From: Polytrichum commune
Lineage: Eukaryota; Streptophyta; Polytrichopsida; Polytrichales; Polytrichaceae
NCBI GenBank assembly: GCA_950295325.1
Contig: OX485803.1
Coordinates: forward strand, 6,016,001-6,080,000
DNA: 64,000 nucleotides
Reading direction: 5' to 3'
Position numbers and translations under genes: made by a program. Positions 8,801-56,888 of the stretch are shown here, piece by piece; within the stretch, counting starts at the first letter, position 1; each line of letters starts with the position of its first letter. The notes under the pieces are model-generated. The model saw only the letters and a list, made by a program, of their open reading frames with translations. It had not been told where the DNA came from and did no database searches.

Positions 8801-10841
8801 TATGAGGGCGGGTTTGGAGTATCGCCGCACGTAAGTCGCACTCGGGATGCCGGAATGGAGGAGAGGAGGGCAGAGGTAGACCTCAGGTTTAATGCCCTAG
8901 AAAATAAATTTAATGCAATGCAGAGCTCGATTGAATTGGTGATGGCCAAGCTTGGCATCACAGTTTCAAGAATGGCCAGCGCTTCCTCAGGTGGAGAGCA
9001 ACCTTCCAGTGATCACAAAGGCAGAGCAGACTCCCGTAGGAGTGTATCACCACCCGCACGCTCTCAGTCGAAGGAGCCGGTAAGCAAGACCCTGGACTTT
9101 GGCAGTGCAGGTGAGAAGGTCACCTCACTGAGCCCAGAGATCCCCTGCGGCTCCCAGAAAGCCTCCTCATTGCATGAGGAGGCTGAACAGGTATGAGGTT
9201 TGAATTGGTTCCGTTGGAAAGCATTGGCATCTGATAAATATGTTTCCATTACGTAAATCTATCATTTCCAAATTTCAAAACCTCATGTGTAATAGTGTAG
9301 TCTTCTTTAGCTCAATGTTGGGCTTTAATGCGCTCTTAATTTGTTGTTGGTTGTAGGCACCGGACGTTTCCAGTGGCGGCGTACCGTCAGTTGTCCAAGC
9401 AACATCGGCTGACGGTGGAAAGCCGGCTTCGAGACCCAGGCCGAAGCGTGCTCGGCTCAGCGAGTCACAGAAACTTACTCTAGAGGCCGGTCCCTTGCTA
9501 CCGAAAGGTAGCCTAAACATAGAATAGTGAAAATAATAGTGAGATAATGCTCATTGTAACTGTTTCTATTTACTACCATAAGTCAATAAGGCTTACTACC
9601 CTAAGTCAGATGAAAGCCAATCCATGTAAACCTCAAGATTTTCAGACTTCATATGACTATGTTATTCAATATCAAAGTGAAGGTCTTGTGCTCTTTAAGT
9701 GGTCATGTAAATTCCCCCAATTATGTTGACTATTGAGCCTAGAATGGCTAATATATTTTGAGCACATAGAAAAATATCTGTTAAATATATGTAGTTTTGA
9801 TTGCACATTGCAGAAAAATCCAGGGGTAGCCCATTAAAAAAGGGCTCGAAGAAAACGGAGAAAGAAGGAGACAAGGAAATGGCGGACAAGCGCCGGGGTG
9901 ACAAACCTCCCCTTGGCACAAAGGCGTCAAAGAAGACATCACCCATTCAGGATTTGGTGAGCATTCGGTCAAACTAATGAAGCCTGGTAGCTAAGTGCAA
10001 GTAAGCACATTAATTCAAGTTTCTCAATTACTTCATTATGGATTTAAGACGCAATTTGTTTACTTAATTCGGCTTAAGGTGGTTGATGCTTTCATTATGA
10101 TTTATATGTTTGATTTGGAAGCACATTTCATATATTTCTGCAGGGTTAATTAAACTGATGATGCATTACTGGACACAGTAAACATTACTGGACACAGTAA
10201 ACATTACTGGACACAGTAAACATTACTGGACATAGTAAACATGACATAGTAAACATTACTAGACATAGTAAACATGAAATAGTAAACATTACTGCACATA
10301 GTAAACATTACTACACATAGTAAACATTACTGCACATAGTAAACATTACTGCACATAGTAAACACTACTGGACATGTCATAGTAAACATTACTTGACATA
10401 GTAAAGAAAAACTGACATAGCAAAGTAGAGATGACGACAATGTAACTTTAGTACTTTGGATTGAATATTTCTTTGATCTGCAAATATCAACACCAACAAA
10501 ATAGTGTGATTCGTGCTCAAAATTTGGAACAGTAACATATGTACGTGAGAATTGTGCAGACTACGGGGGACTTGGTTTACCTGCGTGGCTATGATTATCC
10601 GGATTCGAAAGCGAAAACCATTGGGAAGGGTGTAGTTCAAAATGTAGCAGGTGGGATGCTGCATGGGAAGGTGATTGACAATGGTTATGTATCATTGGCC
10701 GTCACGGAGTCACTTGAAGACAACTATCCTTTGCTCAAACCTCTCACTGGAGACGACCCTCCAGTGACTACTATTGGCAAAGCGAAGGGCCATTACATTT
10801 TTTGGTCAAGCGAATGTGTAAATTTATGTGCGGCTACGTGA
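5886..10841 (+). CDS. Transposase_24 / DUF8039-like transposon protein, 8 exons
   Basis: Proposed exons: 5886-6010, 6160-6523, 6841-7406, 7895-8309, 8666-9190, 9357-9507, 9814-9956, 10560-10841. All phases agree and sum to 857 codons including TGA. Exon 1 carries YERLRRSKIEANSRKLESLG, a motif common at the start of such plant proteins. Exon 2 has the LSDEDVK module and an acidic tail. Exon 3 is highly charged and ends DLDDNDKPYPT. Exon 4 (RPQWLNALRGYSSDL, DNIFTRMKENWEYRG, then HWQHMVEL and GRSEGEVRAQL) resembles Transposase_24 regions of En/Spm elements. Exons 5-7 are Ser/Lys-rich with a short coiled coil (FNALENKFNAMQSSIELVMA). Exon 8 (GGMLHGKVIDNGYVSLAV, then TTIGKAKGHYIFW) resembles DUF8039. 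The 6159 acceptor is weak; the stronger-looking one at 6115 breaks the frame. If exon 1 is dropped, ATG 6149 is an alternative start. Function is probably DNA binding in transposition; no catalytic triad is recognised. Confidence 0.6.
6891..6932 (+). repeat. 10-bp coding tandem repeat, four copies of CTCGCAGAGG
   Basis: Inside exon 3 of the transposon gene the decamer CTCGCAGAGG is repeated about four times head to tail. Because 10 is not a multiple of three, successive copies are read in different frames, producing the Arg/Ala-rich stretch SPRRGSQRLAEARRG. Copy-number change here would shift the frame. Confidence 0.8.
7530..7830 (+). repeat. Intronic copy of a ~300-bp repeat also present at 11,015-11,345
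   Basis: The intron between exons 3 and 4 shares with 11,015-11,345 an ordered series of matching blocks: GCATGTTACT followed by a CAGTAA; GCAGTCGATAT or GAAGTCGATAT; TATGTATTCACTCTT; and ACTACGTA. Each contains palindromic TTACT...AGTAA motifs. Likely element-internal regulatory or transposase-binding sequence. Confidence 0.6.
10160..10410 (+). repeat. 19-bp tandem array CATTACTGGACACAGTAAA with palindromic core
   Basis: About eleven imperfect copies lie between exons 7 and 8. The first copies are identical 19-mers; later ones carry substitutions (TGCACATAG, TAGACATAG) and short truncations. Each core, TTACTGGACACAGTAA, has inverted five-base arms, and the same motif occurs singly elsewhere in the element (for example about 7680 and 10390). 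Confidence 0.85.
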
Positions 10842-15317: not shown

Positions 15318-18300
15318 ATGGGACACTTGACTTTAAATGGGTTGCTTGAGAAGTCTGCTTCAGAATTTGGCTTGCAGCAAGCTCTTGTTGCATCGGGTGG
15401 TCCTCAATTTACACACAAGGAGCTTCAGGTGGCCATTGACAATGCAGCTGCTCAGCTTCGCCGGATTGGTGTGAAGCCTGGCAATCTGGTGTCACTTGCA
15501 TTCCCTAACACTCTTGAGGTATGTAATGTCTTGTGGAATTTGACCCTAAATATTGAACATTAAATTTTTCTTTTATTGTTATTGCAGGAAGATAGGTGTC
15601 CAATGTAGAGTATGTTCATCATTAGTAAAATAAATTTGTTGGTATCTTCTCACATAGCATTCTTAAGTGGTGTAGTGGTTAGTCTCCCTAAATGAGCATC
15701 CTGGAGGGTATACACTTGGCGAGATTCCTTTTGCAAGGTCTTTAACTTGAATTTAAATAGATTTATCCTTTATTTCAACAGGACATTTGGTTTCCAGTGC
15801 TTAGTGTGTGGTTTAAATGAAGAACATTCTATGAGGGCCAAACTCATTTTGGCATGCCAAGGGTGATAAAATGAGTTTGGCCCTCCATTAACCAATATAG
15901 AATGTCCTTTGTTCAAACCCCACACCAATTCCAAGCATGCATTGAAAACTTACCGAACATGGAAAGTGTTGTCTGGAAAACATCGGACTCCTGACCAAAA
16001 GTCCTGTTAAATTAGAGGATAACTCTAGTAGATAGGAGAAGGCTTTATCTGAAGATAGATAACAATGAGGTGACCACCAATGAGAGCTTGCCACTTGACA
16101 ATACTCACAATTCATGTGTAAAATCAAGGACCTTGATCTTGGATTTATTCTTGAGGCTAGAATAGAAAGAGAACGTCCTCACACATGCTTAAGAATGCTA
16201 TGCATCTATCAAACCTTTGTTAATCTGTATTTCTCCTCAGTCTATTTTAACACAATTTAATCTCTTGACCCCCTTGTCTGTTGTGGCACAGTTTGTTGTG
16301 GTCTTCCTAGCTGTGACAAGAGTGAAGGCTATAGCTGCACCTTTGAATGCTGCCTACACAGAGGACGAATTTAAATTCTACCTGGAAGATGCAGGTTCTA
16401 CATTGCTTTTAGTGCCTGGTTTGGAGGGAAATAAAGCAGCGGAAGCTGCTGCCACACAGCTAAGCCTTCCAATTGCGGGGGTACACTTGGAGAAAGGGGA
16501 GTCTGGCAGTGGCGAGGTTAAATTGATGCCCAAGGCAAAGCTTGAATTGGCCCCAGAGCCTGAGGTAAAAAAACCTCATGTCCAGCTAAGTTCAATTAAA
16601 GTTTCTGTGAAGGATGACTCTTCCCTTGTTCTCTTTGTGCATTCTGCGAGATAACAGCAGTTATGTAGTTTTTAGAGACTGTAAGGTCACACTGACCCTG
16701 AAAGTGAAAGTTTCAGATCTTTGGTCGGTGAAAGTTACAGTGTCATTCTGTCTTTCCATTTGACTCCTGAATGTGTAGAAGGCCAGTTGTTATCCTCTAA
16801 TTCAACATGTCATTTGGTGGGGAGTTTGCATACAGCACCTTCTATGTTCATTAAGTTTTTGGTGGATGCTTGGAGGCAGTTTGGAGATTTAAACAAAAGA
16901 ACATTCTATATTGGTTCATTGAGGGTCAAACTCATTTTGGCATGCCAAAAAGGTTTTTTAAAATAATTTTAAACCTCAATGAAAAACTGAAAGAGATTTC
17001 TCTTCATTCAAATTCAAACCCTGCCTCCGAGCATGCACCACAAGTAGAAAGAAATAATCGATATTGTATGCAAACCAACACATGGAAAATAATATGGGAC
17101 CAACTCCTGACTAGAAGTCCCATTGAGTTCAAAGATAACTCTGTTATCTGTATTTGTTTGATCCTAACCTCCATGCGGAAAGCAGATGCAATTGGACAAT
17201 AAATGTTGATAAGGTTTCTTATGGAGGAGAGTTTTGACTTGCTTATTGTTATTCTCTCCAGGATGGACCTGGTCCCAAACCGGAAGAGGGAGATGAAGCC
17301 CTATTCCTGCACACATCCGGGACGACAAGTCGCCCAAAAGGCGTACCGCTAACTCAAAAAAACCTTGCATCGTCAGTTTTAAACATTATTGCCACATATG
17401 AATTGCAACCTTCAGATCGGACATTAATTGTGATGCCCTTATTCCATGTTCACGGGCTTATGGCAAGTCTTCTATCGACGCTCGTTTCGGGAGGAGCAGC
17501 CATCCTTCCTGCTGCGGGACGATTCTCTGCATCAACTTTTTGGGCTGACATCAAAAATTACCAAATCACGTGGTATACTGCGGTTCCGACAATTCACCAA
17601 ATTTTGTTGAAATTGCACAAGAGCAAACCCGAGGGCGAGTACCCAAAATTGCGGTTCATTCGTAGCTGTAGCTCCAGCCTAGCGCCTGTGGTGCTTGCAG
17701 ATCTTGAAATGTCTTTTCATGCTCCTGTGCTGGAGGCATATGCCATGACAGAGGCAAGTCATCAAATGACTTCAAATCCTTTACCCAATCACGGAGCCCA
17801 TAAACCCGGAACGGTTGGGAAGGGGACGGGAATTGAACTTGCCATTCTCAGTGACACAGGAGAGATTTTGAAGCCAGGGGAAATTGGAGAAGTTTGCATC
17901 AAGGGGCCCAATGTGACGTCTGGGTACCGGAACAATCCGGATGCAAACAAGACGGCATATGAGTTTGGGTGGTTCCATACCGGTGACCGTGGTAAATTGG
18001 ATGAGGAAGGTTACCTTACTTTGACTGGTCGTATCAAGGAGCTCATTAATCGTGGAGGTATGTAACTGGTTTCTCACGCATGTAGAAAAATGCTCGTGTG
18101 CATGGTTTTAAGGTTTACATGACAGTCTGGGTCCTAGAAGCTTGGGGTCCCAAAAACCCCCTTAATGGACCTTACTTTCAGACTTAAAATTGGACCCGAA
18201 GTTTGAAGATTGGTTTCCCCAAAGATTATTTTCACGAGTGGGGACCGCTGAGATATGGCTGGAAAGTGATGCCACATAAGTGCCACTTCATTTTTTCATA

Positions 18301-22387: not shown

Positions 22388-24175
22388 CTATTTTGATCCA
22401 AACAAGTTGCTCAATCCTTGAGGAATCTCCACCAAAACCTTACATTCTTGCATGATAAGTTTCTTGAGACTCGTCAACCCACCAAATCCTTCCGGTATCT
22501 TCTTCAAAGACAGACATATCGAGAAATCCAACTCCTCCAATGCACACAAGTTTGTCAAACCGGGAGGAAACTCCTCCAAAGCCTCACATGCTTGCATGAT
22601 AAGTTTCTTGAGACTCGTCAACCCACCAAATCCTTCCGGTATCTTCTTCAAAGACCGACATCTTGAGAACTTCAACTCCTCCAATGCACACAAGTTTGTC
22701 AATCCGGGAGGGAACTCCTCCAAAGCCTCACATTCCCACATGTCAAGTTTCTTGAGACTCGTCAACCCACCCAATCCTTCCGGTATATTCTCCAAACACT
22801 CGCATTTTGAGAAATCCAACTGCTCCAATGCACACAAGTTTGTCAATCCGGGAGGGAACTCCTCCAAAGCCTCACATTCCCACATGTGAAGTTTCTTGAG
22901 ACTCGTCAACCCACCAAATCCTTCCGGTATCTTCTTCAAACACCGGCATTTTGAGAAATTCAACTCCTCCAATGCACACAAGTTTGTGAATCTGGGAGGG
23001 AACTCCTCCAAAGTCTCACATTCCCACATGTCAAGTTTCTTGAGACTCGTCAACCCACCAAATCCTTCCGGTATCTTCTTCAAACACCGACATCTTGAGA
23101 ACTTCAACTCCTCCAATGTACACAAGTTTGTCAATCTGGGAGGGAACTCCTCCAAAGCCTCACATTCTTGCATGATAAGTTTCTTGAGATTCGTCAACCC
23201 ACCAAATCCTTCCGGTATCTTCTTCAAACACCGGCATTTTGAGAAATTCAACTCCTCCAATGTACACAAGTTTGTCAATCCGGGAGGGAACTCCTCCAAA
23301 GCCTCACATTCCCACATGTCAAGTTTCTTGAGAGTCGTCAACCCACCAAATCCTTCCGGTATCTTCTTCAAACACCGACATAGCGAGAAATTCAGCTCCT
23401 CCAATGCACACAAGTTTGTCAATCCGGGAGGGAACTCCTCCAAAGCCTCACATTCCCACATGTGAAGTTTCTTGAGACTCGTCAACCCTCCAAATCCTTC
23501 CGGTATCTTCTTTAAACACCGGCATTTTGAGAAATTCAACTCCTCCAATGTACACAAGTTTGTCAATCCGGGAGGGAACTCCTCCAAAGCCTCACATTCC
23601 CACATGTCAAGTTTCTTGAGACTCGTCAACCCTCCAAATCCTTCCGGTATCTTCTTCAAAGACCGACATCTTGAGAACTCCAACTCCTCCAATGCACACA
23701 AGTTTGTCAATCCGGGAGGGAACTCCTCCAAAGCCTCACATTCCCACATGTCAAGTTTCTTGAGACTCGTCAACCCACCAAATCCTTCCGGTATCTTCTT
23801 CAAACACCGGCATTTTACGAAATTCAACTCCTCCAATGCACACAAGTTTGTCAATCCGGGAGGGAACTCCTCCAAAGCCTCACATTCTTGCATGTTAAGT
23901 TTCTTGAGACTCGTCAACCCACCAAATCCTTCCGGTATCTTCTTCAAACACCGGCATTTTGAGAAATTCAACTCCTCCAATGCACACAAGTTTGTCAATC
24001 CGGGAGGGAACTCCTCCAAAGCCTCACATTCCCACATGTCAAGTTTCTTGAGACTCGTCAACCCACCAAATCCTTCCGGTATCTTCTTCAAACACAGGCA
24101 TTTTGATAAATCCAACTCCTCCAATGCACACAAGTTTGTCAATCCGGGAGGGAACTCCTCCAAAGCCTCACATTC
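22388..24175 (-). pseudogene. In-frame LRR continuation downstream of the nonsense codon
   Basis: Directly after the TAG at 24,176-24,178 the same frame stays open for 595 codons: the rest of the interrupted unit, twelve complete 48-residue double-LRR units, and the tail LVEIPQGLSNLFGSK ending in TAG at 22,388. Not one indel or second stop is present. It would be translated only by readthrough, in an allele lacking the mutation, or if the TAG is a sequence error. Confidence 0.7.
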
Positions 24176-27100
24176 CTACATGTCAAGTTTCTTGAGACTC
24201 GTCAACCCACCAAATCCTTCCGGTATATTCTCCAAACACTGGCATTTTGAGAAATCCAACTCCTCCAATGCACACAAGTTTGTCAATCCGGGAGGGAACT
24301 CCTTCAAAGCCTCACATTCCCACATGAAAAGTTTCTTGAGACTCGTCAACCCACCAAATCCTTCCGGTATCTTCTTCAAACACCGGCATTTTGAGAAATT
24401 CAACTCCTCCAATGCACACAAGTTTGTCAATCCGGGAGGGAACTCCTCCAAAGCCTCACATTCCCACATGTGAAGTTTCTTGAGACTCGTCAACCCACCA
24501 AATCCTTCCGGTATCTTCTTTAAACACCGACATCTTGAGAACTTCAACTCCTCCAATGCACACAAGTTTGTCAATCCGGGAGGGAACTCCTCCAAAGCCT
24601 CACATTCCCACATGTGAAGTTTCTTGAGACTCGTCAACCCACCAAATCCTTCCGGTACCTTCTTCAAACACCGGCATTCTGAGAAATTGAACTCCTCCAA
24701 TGCACACAAGTTTGTCAATCCGGGAGGGAACTCCTCCAAAGCCTCACATTTCCACATGATAAGTTTCTTCAGATTCGTCAACCCACCAAATCCTTCCGGT
24801 ATCTTCTTCAAACACCGGCATTTTGAAAAATCCAGCTTCTCCAATGCACACAAGTTTGTCAATCCGGGAGGGAACTCCTCCAAAGCCTCACATTCCCACA
24901 TGTCAAGTTTCTTGAGACTCGTCAACCCACCAAATCCTTCCGGTATATTCTCCAAACATTGGCATTTTGAGAAATCCAACTCCTCCAATGCACACAAGTT
25001 TGTCAATCCGGGAGGGAACTCCTCCAAAGCCTCACATTCTTGCATTATAAGTTTCTTGAGACTCGTCAACCCACCAAATCCTTCCGGTATCTTCTTCAAA
25101 CACCGGCATTTTGAGAAATTCAACTCCTCCAATGCACACAAGTTGGTCAATCTGGGAGGGAACTCCTCCAAAGCCTCACATTCCCACATGTCAAGTTTCT
25201 TGAGAGTCGTCAACCCACCAAATCCTTCCGGTATTTTCTTCAAACACCGACATAGCGAGAAATTCAGCTCCTCCAATGCACACAAGTTTGTCAATCCGGG
25301 AGGGAACTCCTCCAAAGCCTCACATTCCCACATGTGAAGTTTCTTGAGACTCGTCAACCCACCAAATCCTTCCGGTATCTTCTTTAAACACCGGCATTTT
25401 GAGAAATTCAACTCCTCCAATGTACACAAGTTTGTCAATCCGGGAGGGAACTCCTCCAAAGCCTCACATTCCCACATGTCAAGTTTCTTGAGACTCGTCA
25501 ACCCTCCAAATCCTTCCGGTATCTTCTTTAAACACCGGCATTTTGAGAAATTCAACTCCTCCAATGTACACAAGTTTGTCAATCCGGGAGGGAACTCCTC
25601 CAAAGCCTCACATTCCCACATGTCAAGTTTCTTGAGACTCGTCAACCCTCCAAATCCTTCCGGTATCTTCTTCAAAGACCGACATCTTGAGAACTCCAAC
25701 TCCTCCAATGCACACAAGTTTGTCAATCCGGGAGGGAACTCCTCCAAAGCCTCACATTCCCACATGTCAAGTTTCTTGAGAGTCGTCAACCCACCAAATC
25801 CTTCCGGTATCTTCTTCAAACACCGACATAGCGAGAAATTCAGCTCCTCCAATGCACACAAGTTTGTCAATCCGGGAGGGAACTCCTCCAAAGCCTCACA
25901 TTCCCACATGTCAAGTTTCTTGAGACTCGTCAACCCACCAAATCCTTCCGGTATCTTCTTCAAACACCGGCATTTTACGAAATTCAACTCCTCCAATGCA
26001 CACAAGTTTGTCAATCCGGGAGGGAACTCCTCCAAAGCCTCACATTCCCACATGTCAAGTTTCTTGAGATTCGTCAACCCACCAAATCCTTCCGGTATCT
26101 TCTTCAAAGACCGACATAGCGAGAAATTCAGCTCCTCCAATGCACACAAGTTTGTCAATCCGGGAGGGAACTCCTCCAAAGCCTCACATTCCCACATGTC
26201 AAGTTTCTTGAGACTCGTCAACCCACCAAATCCTTCCGGTATCTTCTTCAAACACAGGCATTTTGATAAATCCAACTCCTCCAATGCACACAAGTTTGTC
26301 AATCCGGGAGGAAACTCCTTCAAAACCTCACATTCTTGCAAGTCAAGTTTCTTAAGACTCGTCAACCCACCAAATCCCTCCGGTATCTTCTTCAAACACC
26401 GGCATTTTAAGAAATTCAACTCCTCCAATGCACACAAGTTTGTCAATCCGGGAGGGAACTCCTCCAAAGCCTCACATTCCCACATGTCAAGTTTCTTGAG
26501 ACTCGTCAACCCACCAAATCCTTCCGGTATCTTCTTCAAAGACCGGCATAGCGAGAAATTCAGCTCCTCCAATGCACACAAGTTTGTCAAACCGGGAGGG
26601 AACTCCTCCAAAGCCTCACATGCTTGCATGATAAGTTTCTTGAGACTCGTCAACCCACCAAATCCTTCCGGTATCTTCTTCAAACACCGGCATTTTGAGA
26701 AATTCAACTCCTCCAATGTACACAAGTTTGTCAATCCGGGAGGGAACTCCTCCAAAGCCTCACATTCTTGCATGTTAAGTTTCTTGAGACTCGTCAACCC
26801 ACCAAATCCTTCCGGTATCTTCTTCAAACACCGGCATTTTAAGAAATTCAACTCCTCCAATGCACACAAGTTTGTCAATCCGGGAGGGAACTCCTCCAAA
26901 GCCTCACATGCTTGCATTATAAGTTTCTTCAAACTCGTCAACCCACCAAATCCTTCCGGTATCTTCTTGAAACACCGGCATTTTGAGAAATCCAACTCCT
27001 CCAATGCACACAAGTTTGTCAATCCGGGAGGAAACTCCTCCAAAGCCTCACATTCCCACATGTTAAGTTTCTTGAGACTCGTCAACCCACCAAATCCTTC

Positions 27101-27187
27101 CGGTATCTTCTTCAAACACCGGCATTTTGAGAAATCCAACTCCTCCAATGCACACAGGTTTGTCAATCCGGGAGGGAACTCCTCCAA
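22436..27187 (-). repeat. 33 x 144-bp tandem LRR-coding array
   Basis: Exactly 33 units of 144 bp (4752 bp) with no indel. Each encodes two 24-residue LRRs: LEEFPPGLTNLCALEELNFS+KCRC and LKKIPEGFGGLTSLKKLDMW+ECEA. Variation clusters at a few positions: A/T after NLC, the D/N/E/K-F and S/V/L pair, the residue before CR, and D/N/H/I/F-M followed by W or Q. Blocks of several units recur in the same order (for example the units with DLSKCLC at about 26,260 and 24,100, fifteen units apart), showing segmental duplication inside the array. Confidence 0.97.
24176..24178 (-). other. Nonsense codon TAG (from TGG) in LRR unit 21
   Basis: The plus strand reads CATTCCTACATGTC where sister units read CATTCCCACATGTC. 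One C-to-T change turns the Trp codon of KLDMWECEA into TAG. All surrounding bases match the array consensus. Confidence 0.95.
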
Positions 27188-30100
27188 AGCCTCACATGCT
27201 TGCATTATAAGTTTCTTCAAACTCGTCAACCCACCAAATCCTTCCGGTATCTTCCTCAAAGATCTACATGTCAAGAAAAATAATTCTTCCAAAGTGGAGA
27301 GGGTGTTCAAATCCTCAGGTATGTTTTCCAATTTGTTGCATCTTGAGATCTTCAATGACTCCAACGTGGAGAATTTAATAACCACATTGAGAATGGTTTC
27401 TATGTTTTGACAATTCAAAAATTGTATTGCCTTCCAGGAGAACCCCTCCAAATTTTGTTGTAACAATGATCCTAATAAGTTGCAATTGGACACCTCGAAT
27501 ATGCGCAAGGATCGGAGATATTGTTGGGAATGATTCCAAAACTTCTCTATGAAATCATTTTCTTTCATTAAAGAGATAGTATTTGGGGATGAAAAGTGCA
27601 TCCTCAACCATTTTACATTAGGTGATGCCTTGACAAGAGATGAAAGTAGGTCAATATTGTTACAACATTGGACATTTAATATACGTAGCTCTTCCATGGG
27701 TTTGAAGTCAACATCCGCTTCATATTTAGATTTGCGTTGCAATTCTTTGAATGATAGGCCTTGGACAAGTTCTATGTCCTACATGCATAAACAAAGGTGG
27801 ATAAGTTTGATTTGTTTTCCATTTCAAATGACAAAATGAATAACCAACCACAATATATAGAACCAAGATACAACTTATCCTACCTAATAAACATATTTCT
27901 CAAGGAAGTTGATATTTCTTAAGCACATTCAAACTTGAATTGCATACCTTTTGTTTACAATGATTGACAAAAGTGGTGTAATTTAAATCCAAAAGTCGCG
28001 TTCCCGCAAATTCTGTTTCTGTGATCATACGACCCATATCACGCAATTGATCGTGCATGTCAAGACGATCCCACTTGTCAACTTTTACCAATGATTTGTT
28101 GTGGAGTCTGTCTAGGATTTCTTGGGCATTCCCATCAAACATTCTAAGAAATGTTTTTTTTGTTATAGACTCATCTTTGGAAAAGAAACAAGTTATGTCT
28201 AGAAACATGTTTTTTTCTTCAATACTTAGCTCATCAAAGCTTATCCTCAATGTCATCCAAAGTTTCTCATTTGGACTTCCATCGTGTCTCGCCCTCAACA
28301 ATCTATGCAACGTTCGCTCCCATATTCTCAATCGTGTCTCCCCTTGCATGCATGTGCCCATCACCTCCAAACTCAAAGGAAGTCCACAACATGCACTCAC
28401 AATCTTTTCAACTACATGTTCCAAATATGGTAAACATAATTTGTTTGTCCCAAAGGCATGCCTTGAAAATAGCCTCATAGGTTGGTTCCCTTCGAGGGTT
28501 TGCATGTCTACTTTGCCAGCCAAGGGTACATGTTGCTTCAAAGTCTCCCAATCACGAGAACTTACAATCAACCTCATGCCAACATCTTTCAACATGCTAT
28601 CTCCCAACAATTGACATAATTGACTTTGCTTGCTTACATTGTCCACCACGAGTAGTATTTTCTTTGTTTTTTGAACACGTTCCAATATATCACGTGTTTT
28701 TCTCAATGTTTCTACTTGAGGAGGTGAGTCTTGCATGTCTCTTGACTTGTGCTTGAATGCAAATGTACATGTTTCATCCTTCAAGTCAATTACAAAACAA
28801 ATTGCATCAAAGTGGTGGGAGATATGGTCACTCAAAGCTTTAGCCAATGTTGACTTGCCAATTCCTCCCATACCCACAATTCCTAGACTACCAACCGTTT
28901 GTAGTTTCTTCTCCAATTGGGACATTTTTTCTTGGACTCCAATCAAACTCAACGATTTCCTCATGTTATTGGCGTTGACCTACAAGAATATCAACATTTC
29001 CAAAGTGAGCGCTGATCAAATGATATATCTGAGGAGGTCTACTAACATCTCCTAATTTTATTCAAAATATTTTGGCTTGATTCACAATTTCAACAACCTT
29101 CTTACCTCCATGATTAACGGATGTGATGAAGTTGGACAATTCTCTTGGACGCTTGAAATTGATGTTGAATTGTCAAAGTGGTGAAGTTGGGGCACAAACC
29201 GCAACCATTGCATGCACTTCAAAAATATATTGCATGATGAAAAAATTTGCCAAAAGCAACCGGTTGTGTCATTTGTAACTCTTGTAATCTCAAGCGAACC
29301 TTTGAGCATTTCGGTTTTCAATCTTGCAAGCCTTTTATGAATATCAAGAAACGTGGGTCTTTTGGATGGATCTAAAGACCAACATTCATGCACTAATGAT
29401 CTCAATACCTCTGAATAGGTTGCTGGGAGCTTTGGCCTCTCGGATTTAAATATATACTCACGATAATCACGAAGCCTTTCAAAACAAGGTTTCTCTCCTG
29501 AAAGAATATCGGAACACAACATGCCGAAACTAAACACATCAGCTTTCAAAGCAGCCACCTCCGACAATTCATTCGCCATGGCCTCAGGCGCCATGTATCC
29601 GAAAGTCCCTATGTTTCGCCCCGTGGGCACTTCTGGAGAATGCTTCACTTCCACCTTTGAAATACCAAAATCCAATAATTTCACATCAATGCACTTAAGA
29701 TGAACCAATTTCGAATCATTTGATGGAGTTACAACAACATTTTTGGGCTTTAGGTCACGATGTGCTACCTTCATATCATGAAGGTAGCACATTCCATTTG
29801 CAATTTGTAACATAATTTCCACGGCATCCATCTCTTTCAGATGACCTCGTGCACTTAAATGTTGTGATAGGGTCGTCTCTCCAAATTCCATTACAAGCTC
29901 AAATTTGTTGTTGGCCTCATGAAAACCACAACACAAAAACCTGATGATATTTGGATGATTCAAACCTCCCAAAATACTCGATTCTTTCCAAAATTGATTT
30001 GCATGCTCACGATCACGAATGTCGATCACTTTTGTTGCGCACTTCACACCCAACCAATTTGTCAAGTATACAGCTCCTCCAATACACTCTCCCAAACTAT

Positions 30101-30716
30101 TCGGTGGATCTCCATATTCAGGGCGAGGATAATTATAAGGAAAAACAATATTATCCAATTCACCACCTTCAACGTGTTGTAAACTCCTTACAAATTCCTC
30201 AAGGTATTGCACAAGTCTGCAGTCTTTGCAATCCTTAGTGTTGCACGAGTCCAAATGCTTGGAAAGCCTTCCACATATTTTCATCCGGTCCTCTTCAACT
30301 GCATTGGTGGATGTTGGGTAGAATGTCGTATCATCCTTAATCACAAGAATTTTTTCCTTTTCATGGGGATTGTAATGGCAAGATATCTCGCACAATGTGT
30401 GGAAACAAGATTCGAAATCCAAAAGTAATTCCCTGAACCACTCTTTATTGTTCAATTGCATCACTGTAGCATCAACCCAATTTTCATTGCAACATTCTTC
30501 AATTAGTACCCTTCCTTTGTTCACAATTCTAAATAAATCTTTTTCAGCTTCATGAAATATTTGAGCTGGACCATTGGTGATGTTGTGCAATATTTCCACA
30601 CCCTTTCGAAAGTTGGAAAGCAAATTCTTACATTGCTTACTATTTAATACTTCTTCCCTCGATAATATATCGGGAAATTCCACAATACCCATTGCTAGCC
30701 GCAAAACATATGCCAT
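24176..30716 (-). CDS. Kinase-NB-ARC-LRR (PNL-type) immune receptor, cut in the LRR array
   Basis: Exons: 30716-29106, 28979-27948 and 27778-24176, with phase-0 introns of 126 and 169 bp; 2081 residues to the TAG. Residues 1-115 are helical and resemble the DUF1221/HeLo bundle of plant MLKL-like kinases (RVLIEECCNENWVDA, CFHTLCEI). Kinase, about 205-470: K229 in CATKVI, E245, HRDLKPKN at 319, DFG at 349, MAPE near 377, so probably active. NB-ARC, about 543-860: P-loop GMGGIGKST at 573-581, LLVVDNV near 650, GLPL near 736, FLDITCFF near 797, MHD near 845. LRRs follow to the end. NB-ARC receptors detect pathogen effectors and trigger defence. Kinase-NBS-LRR proteins are known from mosses. The TAG replaces a Trp codon conserved in sister units, leaving about 20.9 of 33 double units. 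The truncated protein may still work. Confidence 0.85.
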
Positions 30717-35149: not shown

Positions 35150-37450
35150 AGCACACACCGACGGCAGCAACACTAATCGAGGAGACTCGCAGATGAGTTA
35201 CAGATGAACCAGTTGAGATTGAAAGCACCGGCAGCTAGTTGCAATTGAACTGGTTGAGGGGAGAGAACCAGCCGGCAGCTGGTAATAGATGAACCGGTTG
35301 AGGTGACAGAACCGGCAGCTCGTAACAGAGGACCTAGTTGAGTTGAAAGGTCATCAGGAGCCTTACCAATTGTGCTGCAACTTTAGCAGGCGACTCAAGC
35401 AGGAGTCGGATTTGGATGCGTTTAAGGGCTGCGGCATGGAATAAACTAATCAAAAATGCTAAACTTACCTGCCACGCGGGCCGCAGGCATCAACTTACAG
35501 AATGCGAGCCCTGTCCCACCAGCATGTGCACCACACTTCCGCCACAAAAAGCAACAGATTTACAACAAGTTCTGACTTCCAAATTAATTGTTGCAGGGCG
35601 AATCAGATCAACATGGGACTTGGAAACACCAGGATCTCGACTGATTATGCCCAATCCTCCACCGGACACTCCTTAGGAGCTGCCTTGATATCAGGGATCT
35701 CTCCCTGCTTAAGCACCACTTCCCACACGAGACTGCGGGACGGCGACAGTAAGTTTTATTTTATTTTAAGGCAAGCACACTGAGATGTAAAGTGCACGAC
35801 AATATAATTTTAAAAGCATCCTTAGCTGCTGTTTTGAAATGGGGAGTAGTAGTCAAGGGAAGCAAACGATGATCAGCAAGAGTAGCAGAGAAAATCACCA
35901 GTTGAGACTACAGCTAGTTGCAGATGAACTGGTCGAGGGGAGAGAACCGGCAGCCCTGACCCAGTTAAGTTCAGAGGTCACACATGAACCGGTTGTGGTC
36001 ACAGATTCGGCAACTCGACACATATGAACCGGTTTAAGGCAGTGGATCCGGCAGCTAGTGACAGATGACCCGGTTGAGTTAAGGGGTAACCAATGAAGCA
36101 CAAGGCTGCAACATTACAGAATATGCCTACTTTAATGGAAATTTGAAGGTGGTCAACAGATAGTCGGTTGGACCTCCAAACACTAGGATCTCAACCAACT
36201 ATGCTCCAATATCTCTGCAAACACCAGGATCTCAACAAACTATGCTCAAAATCTCTGCAAAAACTAGCATCTCAACCAACTATGCTCAAATATCTCTGCA
36301 CACACAAGGATCTCAACCAACTATGCTCAAAATCTCTGCAAAAACTAGCATCTCAACCAACTATGCTCAAATATCTCTGCACACACAAGGATCTCAACCA
36401 ACTATGCTCAAAATCTCTGCAATCACTAGTTGGAAACAAACTAACGACGATCTGATCCATTAGCACATACACACACATTGCTACAGAAGAAATCTTCAAG
36501 AGCGGAAATATTCCTAAGCGGCTCCTCCAATGATTCACACAGCAGCAGCTGAAAAGTGAGAGAGCGAGAGCAATCGAGTTCATCTAAGAGAGAGCAGTGG
36601 AGTTGGGTTGAGTTGAATGGGAAAGAGGGACAGGTGCTTCACAGTGGAGCCAGTGGAGAGTTCGGAGCGGGCCAGAGGAGCGTGCCACCTGTTTTTTTCC
36701 CCCAAGTTGAAAATAGCCGTTTCCAATGACGACAGCTAGCTACAGATGAACTAGTTGAGTTCAAGAAAACCGACCGCTAATTACAGATGAACCGGCTAAG
36801 TCAGTGGGCCAGGTCGTGGAGTGGGGCGGCCAGTGGACAGAGTCATTTCCACAGAAGGGGGAAACCAGCTGACAGATACTTGAAGCCATTTATAGCAACA
36901 AATCAATTACAGATGACAGATGACTCGCTTGAATTGAGGGCTTGCTGGGGCAACGAGGTCGTGCCCACCTGTCACCTCCCTAAGAGTTATTTTCAACTCT
37001 AGGAGAGCCGGTAGAGCTATAGATGACCGGCATTTATTTACAAAGGAACATGTTGAATTTGGATTAATTACACAGGAGCTATGTTCGGGAAGAACCGGCA
37101 GATGAATCGGTTGAGCTCGAGAGATAACCGGTTGGATTATAGAACCGTCGGGCTCTTGACAGACTATGCCCAAAAACTTCCTGAACACTGAACGGGAACC
37201 GACAGCTAATTACAGATGAACATGTTTTGTCTGAAGGATAACCGGTCATGGTGAGATATCCGGTTGAGAGATACCCAGTTGAAAGGCAACCGGTTGAGTC
37301 GTAAGATAACCAGCTGAAGCTCAAGACTGCGGGGGTATTACCGACCATTTTAAAGGAGATTATAGAGTATTCTCCAATTCGGTAAAGGGGAACCAAAGGA
37401 TGTCAACATGTAACCGGTTCGACTTGCAAACATTAGGGTCTATACCTCTT
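35150..37450 (+). repeat. R3 repeat region: degenerate ~41-bp minisatellite with AACCGGTT
   Basis: A unit of the form ACAGATGAACCGGTTGAG plus GAGAACCGGCAGCTAGTT recurs many times. Adjacent copies near 35,206, 35,247, 35,288 and 35,327, and near 35,983, 36,024 and 36,064, are 39-41 bp apart. The centre is often the perfect palindrome AACCGGTT. The stretch also contains AGGATCTCGACTGATTATGC motifs. Single, fuller copies at 42,820-43,040 and (minus strand) 5110-5310 show that this is an amplified part of a dispersed repeat, perhaps a retrotransposon LTR; no terminus was found. Confidence 0.65.
36186..36428 (+). repeat. Six 40/41-bp units in three 81-bp dimers
   Basis: Units alternate between 40 and 41 bp: GGATCTCAACCAACTATGCT+CAAAATCTCTGCAAAAACTA and GCATCTCAACCAACTATGCT+CAAATATCTCTGCACACACAA. 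The last four units are nearly identical, so dimer amplification is recent. The 81-bp period is a multiple of three, which explains an incidental open frame across it. Confidence 0.92.

Positions 37451-52628: not shown

Positions 52629-56888
<4,260 letters not shown>

Follow-up and report, generated by a model that had tools for sequence, protein, structure and literature searches.

A moss kinase–NB-ARC–LRR receptor gene with a predicted MLKL-type module in its 5′ exon

We analyzed a 64-kb window of moss DNA (C1:6016001-6080000; "the window" is the whole of this stretch) and followed up a receptor gene on its minus strand. We conclude, with a probability of roughly 70%, that the gene encodes a moss kinase-NBS-LRR (PNL) receptor whose 5′ exon specifies a complete MLKL-type module, in which a DUF1221/HeLo-like helical domain is followed by a linker and by a kinase with its catalytic residues intact. 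The N-terminal region is homologous to a DUF1221 kinase encoded elsewhere in the genome (L051) and the catalytic residues are retained, which together point to an MLKL-type helical domain and kinase fused to an NLR. An MLKL-related module at the start of the receptor would combine the sensing of pathogens and, possibly, the killing of cells in a single molecule; by analogy, the helical region may have a role in cell death.

Gene structure and the kinase–NB-ARC family

The frame runs from 30716 to 24176 (Table 1), and its start codon lies in the context AAAATGGC. Consensus splice borders flank both introns. From 29330 to 28890 there are 234 GT-AG combinations of at least 60 nt, 31 of which keep the frame open, and among these frame-keeping pairs the chosen intron 1 alone combines a strong donor with a strong acceptor (judged by eye). 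Four near relatives (L052-L055) agree with the window gene in the opening 12 bases of intron 1 and in where the NB-ARC ORF lies. Their exon 2 is 97.3-98.3% identical to that of the window gene, and the first 540 nt of exon 3 show 95.6-96.3% nucleotide identity to L052, L053 and L054; L055, whose LRR frame starts one base later, is out of register in this segment and was not comparable. Given the splice sites, the phase-0 introns and the recurrence in relatives, the kinase and the NB-ARC domain are unlikely to belong to separate genes. The original prediction of a three-exon frame joining N-terminus, kinase and NB-ARC is therefore confirmed, with splicing predicted from the sequence.

Table 1. 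Coordinates of the receptor gene features in the window, and of the DUF1221 kinase locus L051
Feature	Position	Strand	Details
Exon 1	30716-29106	minus	537 aa
DUF1221/HeLo-like N-terminal region (residues 1-120)	30357..30716	minus	Homology covered residues 14-104
Linker (residues 121-206)	30099..30356	minus	Model helices 140-157 and 168-180 (low confidence, pLDDT below 50 throughout)
Protein kinase domain (residues 207-463)	29328..30098	minus	Pfam; K229, E245, HRD (319-321), DFG (349-351), APE
Intron 1 (126 nt, phase 0, kinase/NB-ARC boundary)	28980..29105	minus	GAG|GTAAGA ... TTCTTGTAG|G
Exon 2	27948..28979	minus	344 aa; NB-ARC and ROQ1-type winged helix
Intron 2 (169 nt, phase 0)	27779..27947	minus	AAG|GTATGC ... 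GCATGTAG|G
Exon 3 (LRR)	from 27778	minus	Starts with irregular LRRs ahead of the array, 27233..27778
LRR array	22481..27232	minus	33 near-identical 144-nt units (48 aa, two LRRs each)
In-frame TAG, unit 22	24173..24175	minus	Absent from the arrays of L052, L054 and L055
Degenerate terminal unit with TAA	22388..22480	minus	TAA at 22390-22388
L051	ORF 286-1995	minus	PF06760 match at C1:75400340-75400606

Pfam matched the window protein with Pkinase (1.4e-44), NB-ARC (1.3e-24), LRR_4 (2.8e-106) and WHD_ROQ1 (8.6e-13), the last corresponding to the TNL-like NBS of the moss PNL class. The NBS motif strings also look TNL-like, in our estimation. Exon 2 contains a P-loop (GMGGIGKST), kinase-2, GLPL, RNBS-D and an MHD motif (LDMHDQL); P-loop and MHD, like K229, E245, HRD and DFG, were located where they had originally been placed.

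The kinase was examined in an alignment (A1) that combined the window protein with those of 27 loci chosen from L010-L050, the 41 others fetched; the remaining 14 were near-duplicates, partial loci or loci with stops. K229, E245, D321 and D349 are invariant across the 28 proteins, and the near-invariant H319, R320 and N326 are replaced by Y, C and H in the single members L013, L046 and L027, respectively. Plant MLKLs are described as pseudokinases, whereas here the central catalytic residues are present and the kinase may be active. The glycine-rich loop is degenerate in the window copy (GECIGGAV) and canonical in some more distant relatives (GKGGYGSV), so that the kinase activity of the window copy is less certain than had been implied.

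A single-sequence search of the PDB gave 6ka4 as the best match (1.5e-24) and 6lba as the eleventh (7.9e-21). With the family profile, 6lba and 6ka4 came second and third (139.3 and 122.4 bits), below a chain with two EGFR kinase copies (148 bits), with a tyrosine kinase just below 6ka4 (120.2 bits) and the plant kinase CTR1 at 113.4 bits. The entries 6lba ('Protein kinase family protein') and 6ka4 ('F22L4.1 protein') are presumably Arabidopsis MLKLs.

Relatives were sought in 407.8 Mb of genome sequence in 64 contigs, of which C1-C7 together make up about 406 Mb. Exon 1 matched at least 86 rows at no fewer than 81 loci, the window gene included, with 49-100% identity (49-97% for the others); the locus count is a lower bound, 81 of 795 first-look candidates having been scored, and it differs from the row count because five relatives were each split over two rows. 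The helical region and the kinase were matched as a single stretch in most of the 86 rows. Among the 30 loci fetched with flanks (L009-L038, L009 being the window gene), a P-loop was found within 1.5 kb downstream in 28 and was not found at L015 and L034. Scans of viral contigs with exons 1 and 2 and of genome contigs with exon 1, which reach close relatives only, returned none.

The extent of the family bears on the possibility that the module is an integrated decoy, in which a duplicate of an MLKL-type protein, joined to the receptor, would lure effectors directed against MLKL. Host-like domains, kinases included, do occur fused as integrated domains in the NLRs of nonflowering plants (PMC11218826), which gives this explanation a precedent. 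We consider it improbable, because the module sits at the N-terminus across a large family with a PNL-type phase-0 intron and does not appear as a sporadic insertion, and because its central catalytic residues are kept.

The window holds several further features. Two exon-like ORFs on the plus strand at 16193-18065 match AMP-binding (1.3e-08 and 3.7e-51) and are probably one acyl-CoA-synthetase-type gene. Tandem repeats at 10164-10405, 36177-36429, 55708-55803 and 56783-56866 comprise arrays of 19 nt and 81 nt as well as two long runs of CT. The window gave no match to Rfam at the gathering threshold and none in a tRNA scan.

The N-terminal region and its relation to DUF1221 kinases

The N-terminus had been proposed to be a DUF1221/HeLo bundle. 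A genome search with PF06760 (DUF1221), in which all 16 candidates were scored, gave a single match over the cut-off, at L051, whose ORF encodes a DUF1221 region followed by a kinase with HRDL but with HFS instead of DFG. L051 passes the cut-off at its residues 77-165, the very stretch that aligns with the window N-terminus. In BLASTP, the N-terminal 200 residues of the window protein matched L051 with 48 bits (4e-11, 32% identity over 94 positions), and the whole of exon 1 did so with 140 bits (5e-40, 26% identity over residues 14-475). A profile of the first 200 codons from 25 of the 28 aligned proteins (A2) scored 38.2 bits against L051, compared with at most 11.0 bits for shuffled sequences (5,000 shuffles of the N-terminal 235 residues, 4,484 reported) and 7.4 bits for the best unrelated ORF among 582 ORFs of at least 80 residues from the window and all fetched loci. 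At the level of sequence comparison, the homology of the window N-terminus to DUF1221 proteins is shown.

The link to MLKL structures is fainter. The A2 profile scored 13.5 bits against a 6lba fragment, the best of 5,000 shuffles reaching 11.7 (4,725 reported), and A1 positions 16-110 aligned with 6lba residues 20-124 in order with the kinase match, weakly (10.1 bits, i-Evalue 1.8). The invariant residues of the N-terminal region in the 28 aligned proteins include L24, N25, Q28, C29, C75, C76, W80 and F94-L98. A single-sequence AlphaFold2 model of exon 1 had a pLDDT of 34.7, too low for reading the fold. We consider it likely that the region adopts a HeLo fold, and we infer that the linker occupies the position of the MLKL brace.

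Direct domain searches of the family gave no match over a DUF1221 or MLKL_N cut-off. Neither DUF1221 nor MLKL/MLKL_N passed its Pfam cut-off in the window protein; the window N-terminus matched SPOB_ab alone in Pfam (0.026-0.031), had no match in NCBIfam and, in a phmmer search of the PDB, had none at E<=10. PF06760 did not match any of the 28 aligned proteins, the window protein included, at E<=10, a search in which the HMMER filters drop most weak matches. Among the 25 N-termini, MLKL_N was found below the cut-off in five (best 0.0025), the window's own not among them, and comparable below-cut-off matches were obtained with SPOB_ab (eight, best 0.011) and DUF7792 (six, best 0.0032), and one with RPW8 (0.058). 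From the PDB, at E<=10, the A2 profile retrieved five weak, unrelated matches and not MLKL. The proposed assignment is supported at the level of sequence homology. That the N-terminus passes no cut-off could be the reason that such genes carry no annotation beyond 'protein kinase'.

L051 is itself a candidate moss MLKL and the sole DUF1221 match that we found in the genome. One review describes plant MLKLs as conserved across seed plants.

A possible though not favored alternative is that the exon encodes an ordinary signaling kinase, which upon NLR activation would phosphorylate downstream substrates, while the helical part would dock to or regulate the kinase and have no activity on membranes. 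The invariant catalytic residues exceed what a pure executioner needs, and expression data can be read the same way. In the work of Chia et al. (2024; PMC11218826), N-terminal kinase segments that reached as far as the NB-ARC were expressed. A segment of a P. patens kinase-NLR elicited in N. benthamiana a modest response that varied, and what the wheat Tsn1 kinase domain elicited required its HRD motif and G29. Mild ion leakage was reported for every kinase in the test apart from the Tsn1 G29E mutant; this leakage and the P. patens response also count in favor of the main explanation. This alternative does not account as readily for a helical region that is conserved, has invariant residues of its own and shares common descent with a DUF1221 region.

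The LRR array and its premature stop

The gene had been thought to end at 24176. The stop codon at that point is, however, an in-frame TAG inside unit 22 of the LRR array, beyond which the same frame continues for 11 more units to a TAA. The arrays of L052, L054 and L055 are uninterrupted, and each ends in a similar terminal unit and stop, that of L054 lying two residues earlier. Because the arrays of these relatives lack the TAG, position 24176 marks a truncation and not the natural gene end, and the window copy has probably been truncated by a recent nonsense change.

The 33 units of the window array have a mean pairwise identity of 93.2%. Non-synonymous changes are concentrated at unit positions 9, 11, 12, 33, 35 and 36, the predicted concave or ligand face. 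In the window array, pN is 0.273 on these six positions versus 0.028 elsewhere and pN/pS 0.98 versus 0.36, with replacement/silent counts of 61/6 on the face (the TAG, at a face position, is counted in the 61) and 47/38 elsewhere. The corresponding counts, taken against a codon-majority consensus, are 72/11 versus 106/78 in L052 (35 units), 59/2 versus 91/61 in L054 (23 units) and 71/11 versus 80/74 in L055 (30 units); these statistics assume independent units, which array units are not, and P values derived from them are descriptive. A face pN/pS close to 1 is compatible with either relaxed or diversifying change, and is not in itself proof of positive selection. Four-gamete tests were positive for 98 of 231 site pairs in the window array, as expected of exchange between units.

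In L053 most of the array is gone, leaving four unit-like stretches and an LRR ORF of 357 codons. Its exon 2 is 98% identical to that of the window gene, an indication of how fast array length changes.

Opposite the LRR array, the plus strand at 22422-27410 has open stretches of up to 690 aa, which we attribute to the uniformity of the 144-nt unit and do not regard as a gene.

Whether the window copy is a decaying pseudogene, whose own details would mean little, is a question that leaves the main explanation of the family intact. The TAG absent from three relatives' arrays, the internal stops within the match at 7 of the 81 exon-1 loci and the loss of nearly the whole array in L053 all favor decay. 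On the other hand, exons 1 and 2 and the remaining array are open, 21 complete units remain in the truncated frame, and replacement changes are not significantly enriched in the units past the TAG (Fisher P=0.36, a descriptive value); the TAG may also be a sequencing or assembly error. Decay is in our view a serious possibility, if somewhat short of an even chance. The window copy may be hypomorphic or a pseudogene, with the family as the working entity.

Possible mode of action and comparison with known systems

If the 5′ exon encodes an MLKL-type module, the receptor could act as follows. The LRR array would sense a ligand, and the NB-ARC would exchange nucleotide and oligomerize; kinases brought together in this way might phosphorylate one another or nearby partners, and the helical domain could then be released to signal or to permeabilize the membrane, as proposed for MLKL and RPW8-type domains. 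In its strongest form this would make a major class of moss NLRs a one-molecule necrosome, in which a fast-turnover LRR sensor, an NB-ARC switch, a RIPK-like kinase and a HeLo-like executor in the role of MLKL are fused, and assembly triggers trans-phosphorylation and release of the killing domain. We put this forward as a tentative idea that is rather unlikely to hold in full. Descent from an MLKL-type module would offer a concrete, testable answer to how the N-terminus of kinase-NLRs acts, and would connect the immunity conferred by plant NLRs with proteins of the necroptosis type. With LRR units that are nearly identical and vary mainly on the ligand face, in several copies, the family is also a good natural setting in which to study how new specificities arise by unequal exchange.

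Arabidopsis MLKL resembles the window gene in having a helical N-terminus collinear with a kinase. Plant MLKLs are described as separate pseudokinase proteins with no NB-ARC-LRR, whereas in the window gene the kinase has K, E, HRD and DFG and forms part of an NLR. NLRs with an RPW8/CC-R (HeLo-like) domain and fungal HeLo NLRs share with it a HeLo-type domain at the NLR N-terminus. In these two groups, no kinase is known to lie between the helical and the nucleotide-binding domains.

The closest counterpart is the moss PNL class. As the original prediction stated, kinase-NBS-LRR proteins are reported from mosses; the PNL genes were described in 2012, and the intron that separates their kinase from the NBS was found to be in phase 0 (Xue et al., 2012; PMC3352924). 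Among the NLRs of P. patens, kinase-NLRs were reported as the dominant class (45 of 65 genes; PMC3352924), and 17 kinase-NLs are listed for this species. The class has an N-terminal Ser/Thr kinase, a TNL-like NBS, a C-terminal LRR, the phase-0 intron and many members (PMC3352924, PMC3991678, PMC11218826), and the window gene likewise appears to join kinase, NB-ARC and LRR in one frame, with a predicted phase-0 intron between kinase and NBS. In the case of PpC24, a member of the class, a stop where the NBS ends was present in every transcript detected by its authors (Tanigaki et al., 2014; PMC3991678). Two differences emerge from the descriptions consulted: the moss PNL N-terminus is described as a protein kinase only, whereas that of the window gene starts with a DUF1221-homologous region, and the LRR of the window gene is a long homogenized array, unlike those described. 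In the literature searched, as far as the sources were available, nothing was found that ties moss kinase-NLRs to MLKL or DUF1221.

Wheat Pm13 offers the other half of the comparison. It combines an MLKL-type helical N-terminus (MLKL_NTD) with an active-type kinase that has its catalytic residues, like the window gene, and confers resistance; it is described without an NB-ARC-LRR, and its kinase belongs to the DLSV subfamily (PMC10951266). The two parts of the proposed architecture are thus already known separately, kinase-NLR fusions from mosses (PMC3352924) and an MLKL_NTD with an active-type kinase from wheat Pm13 (PMC10951266).
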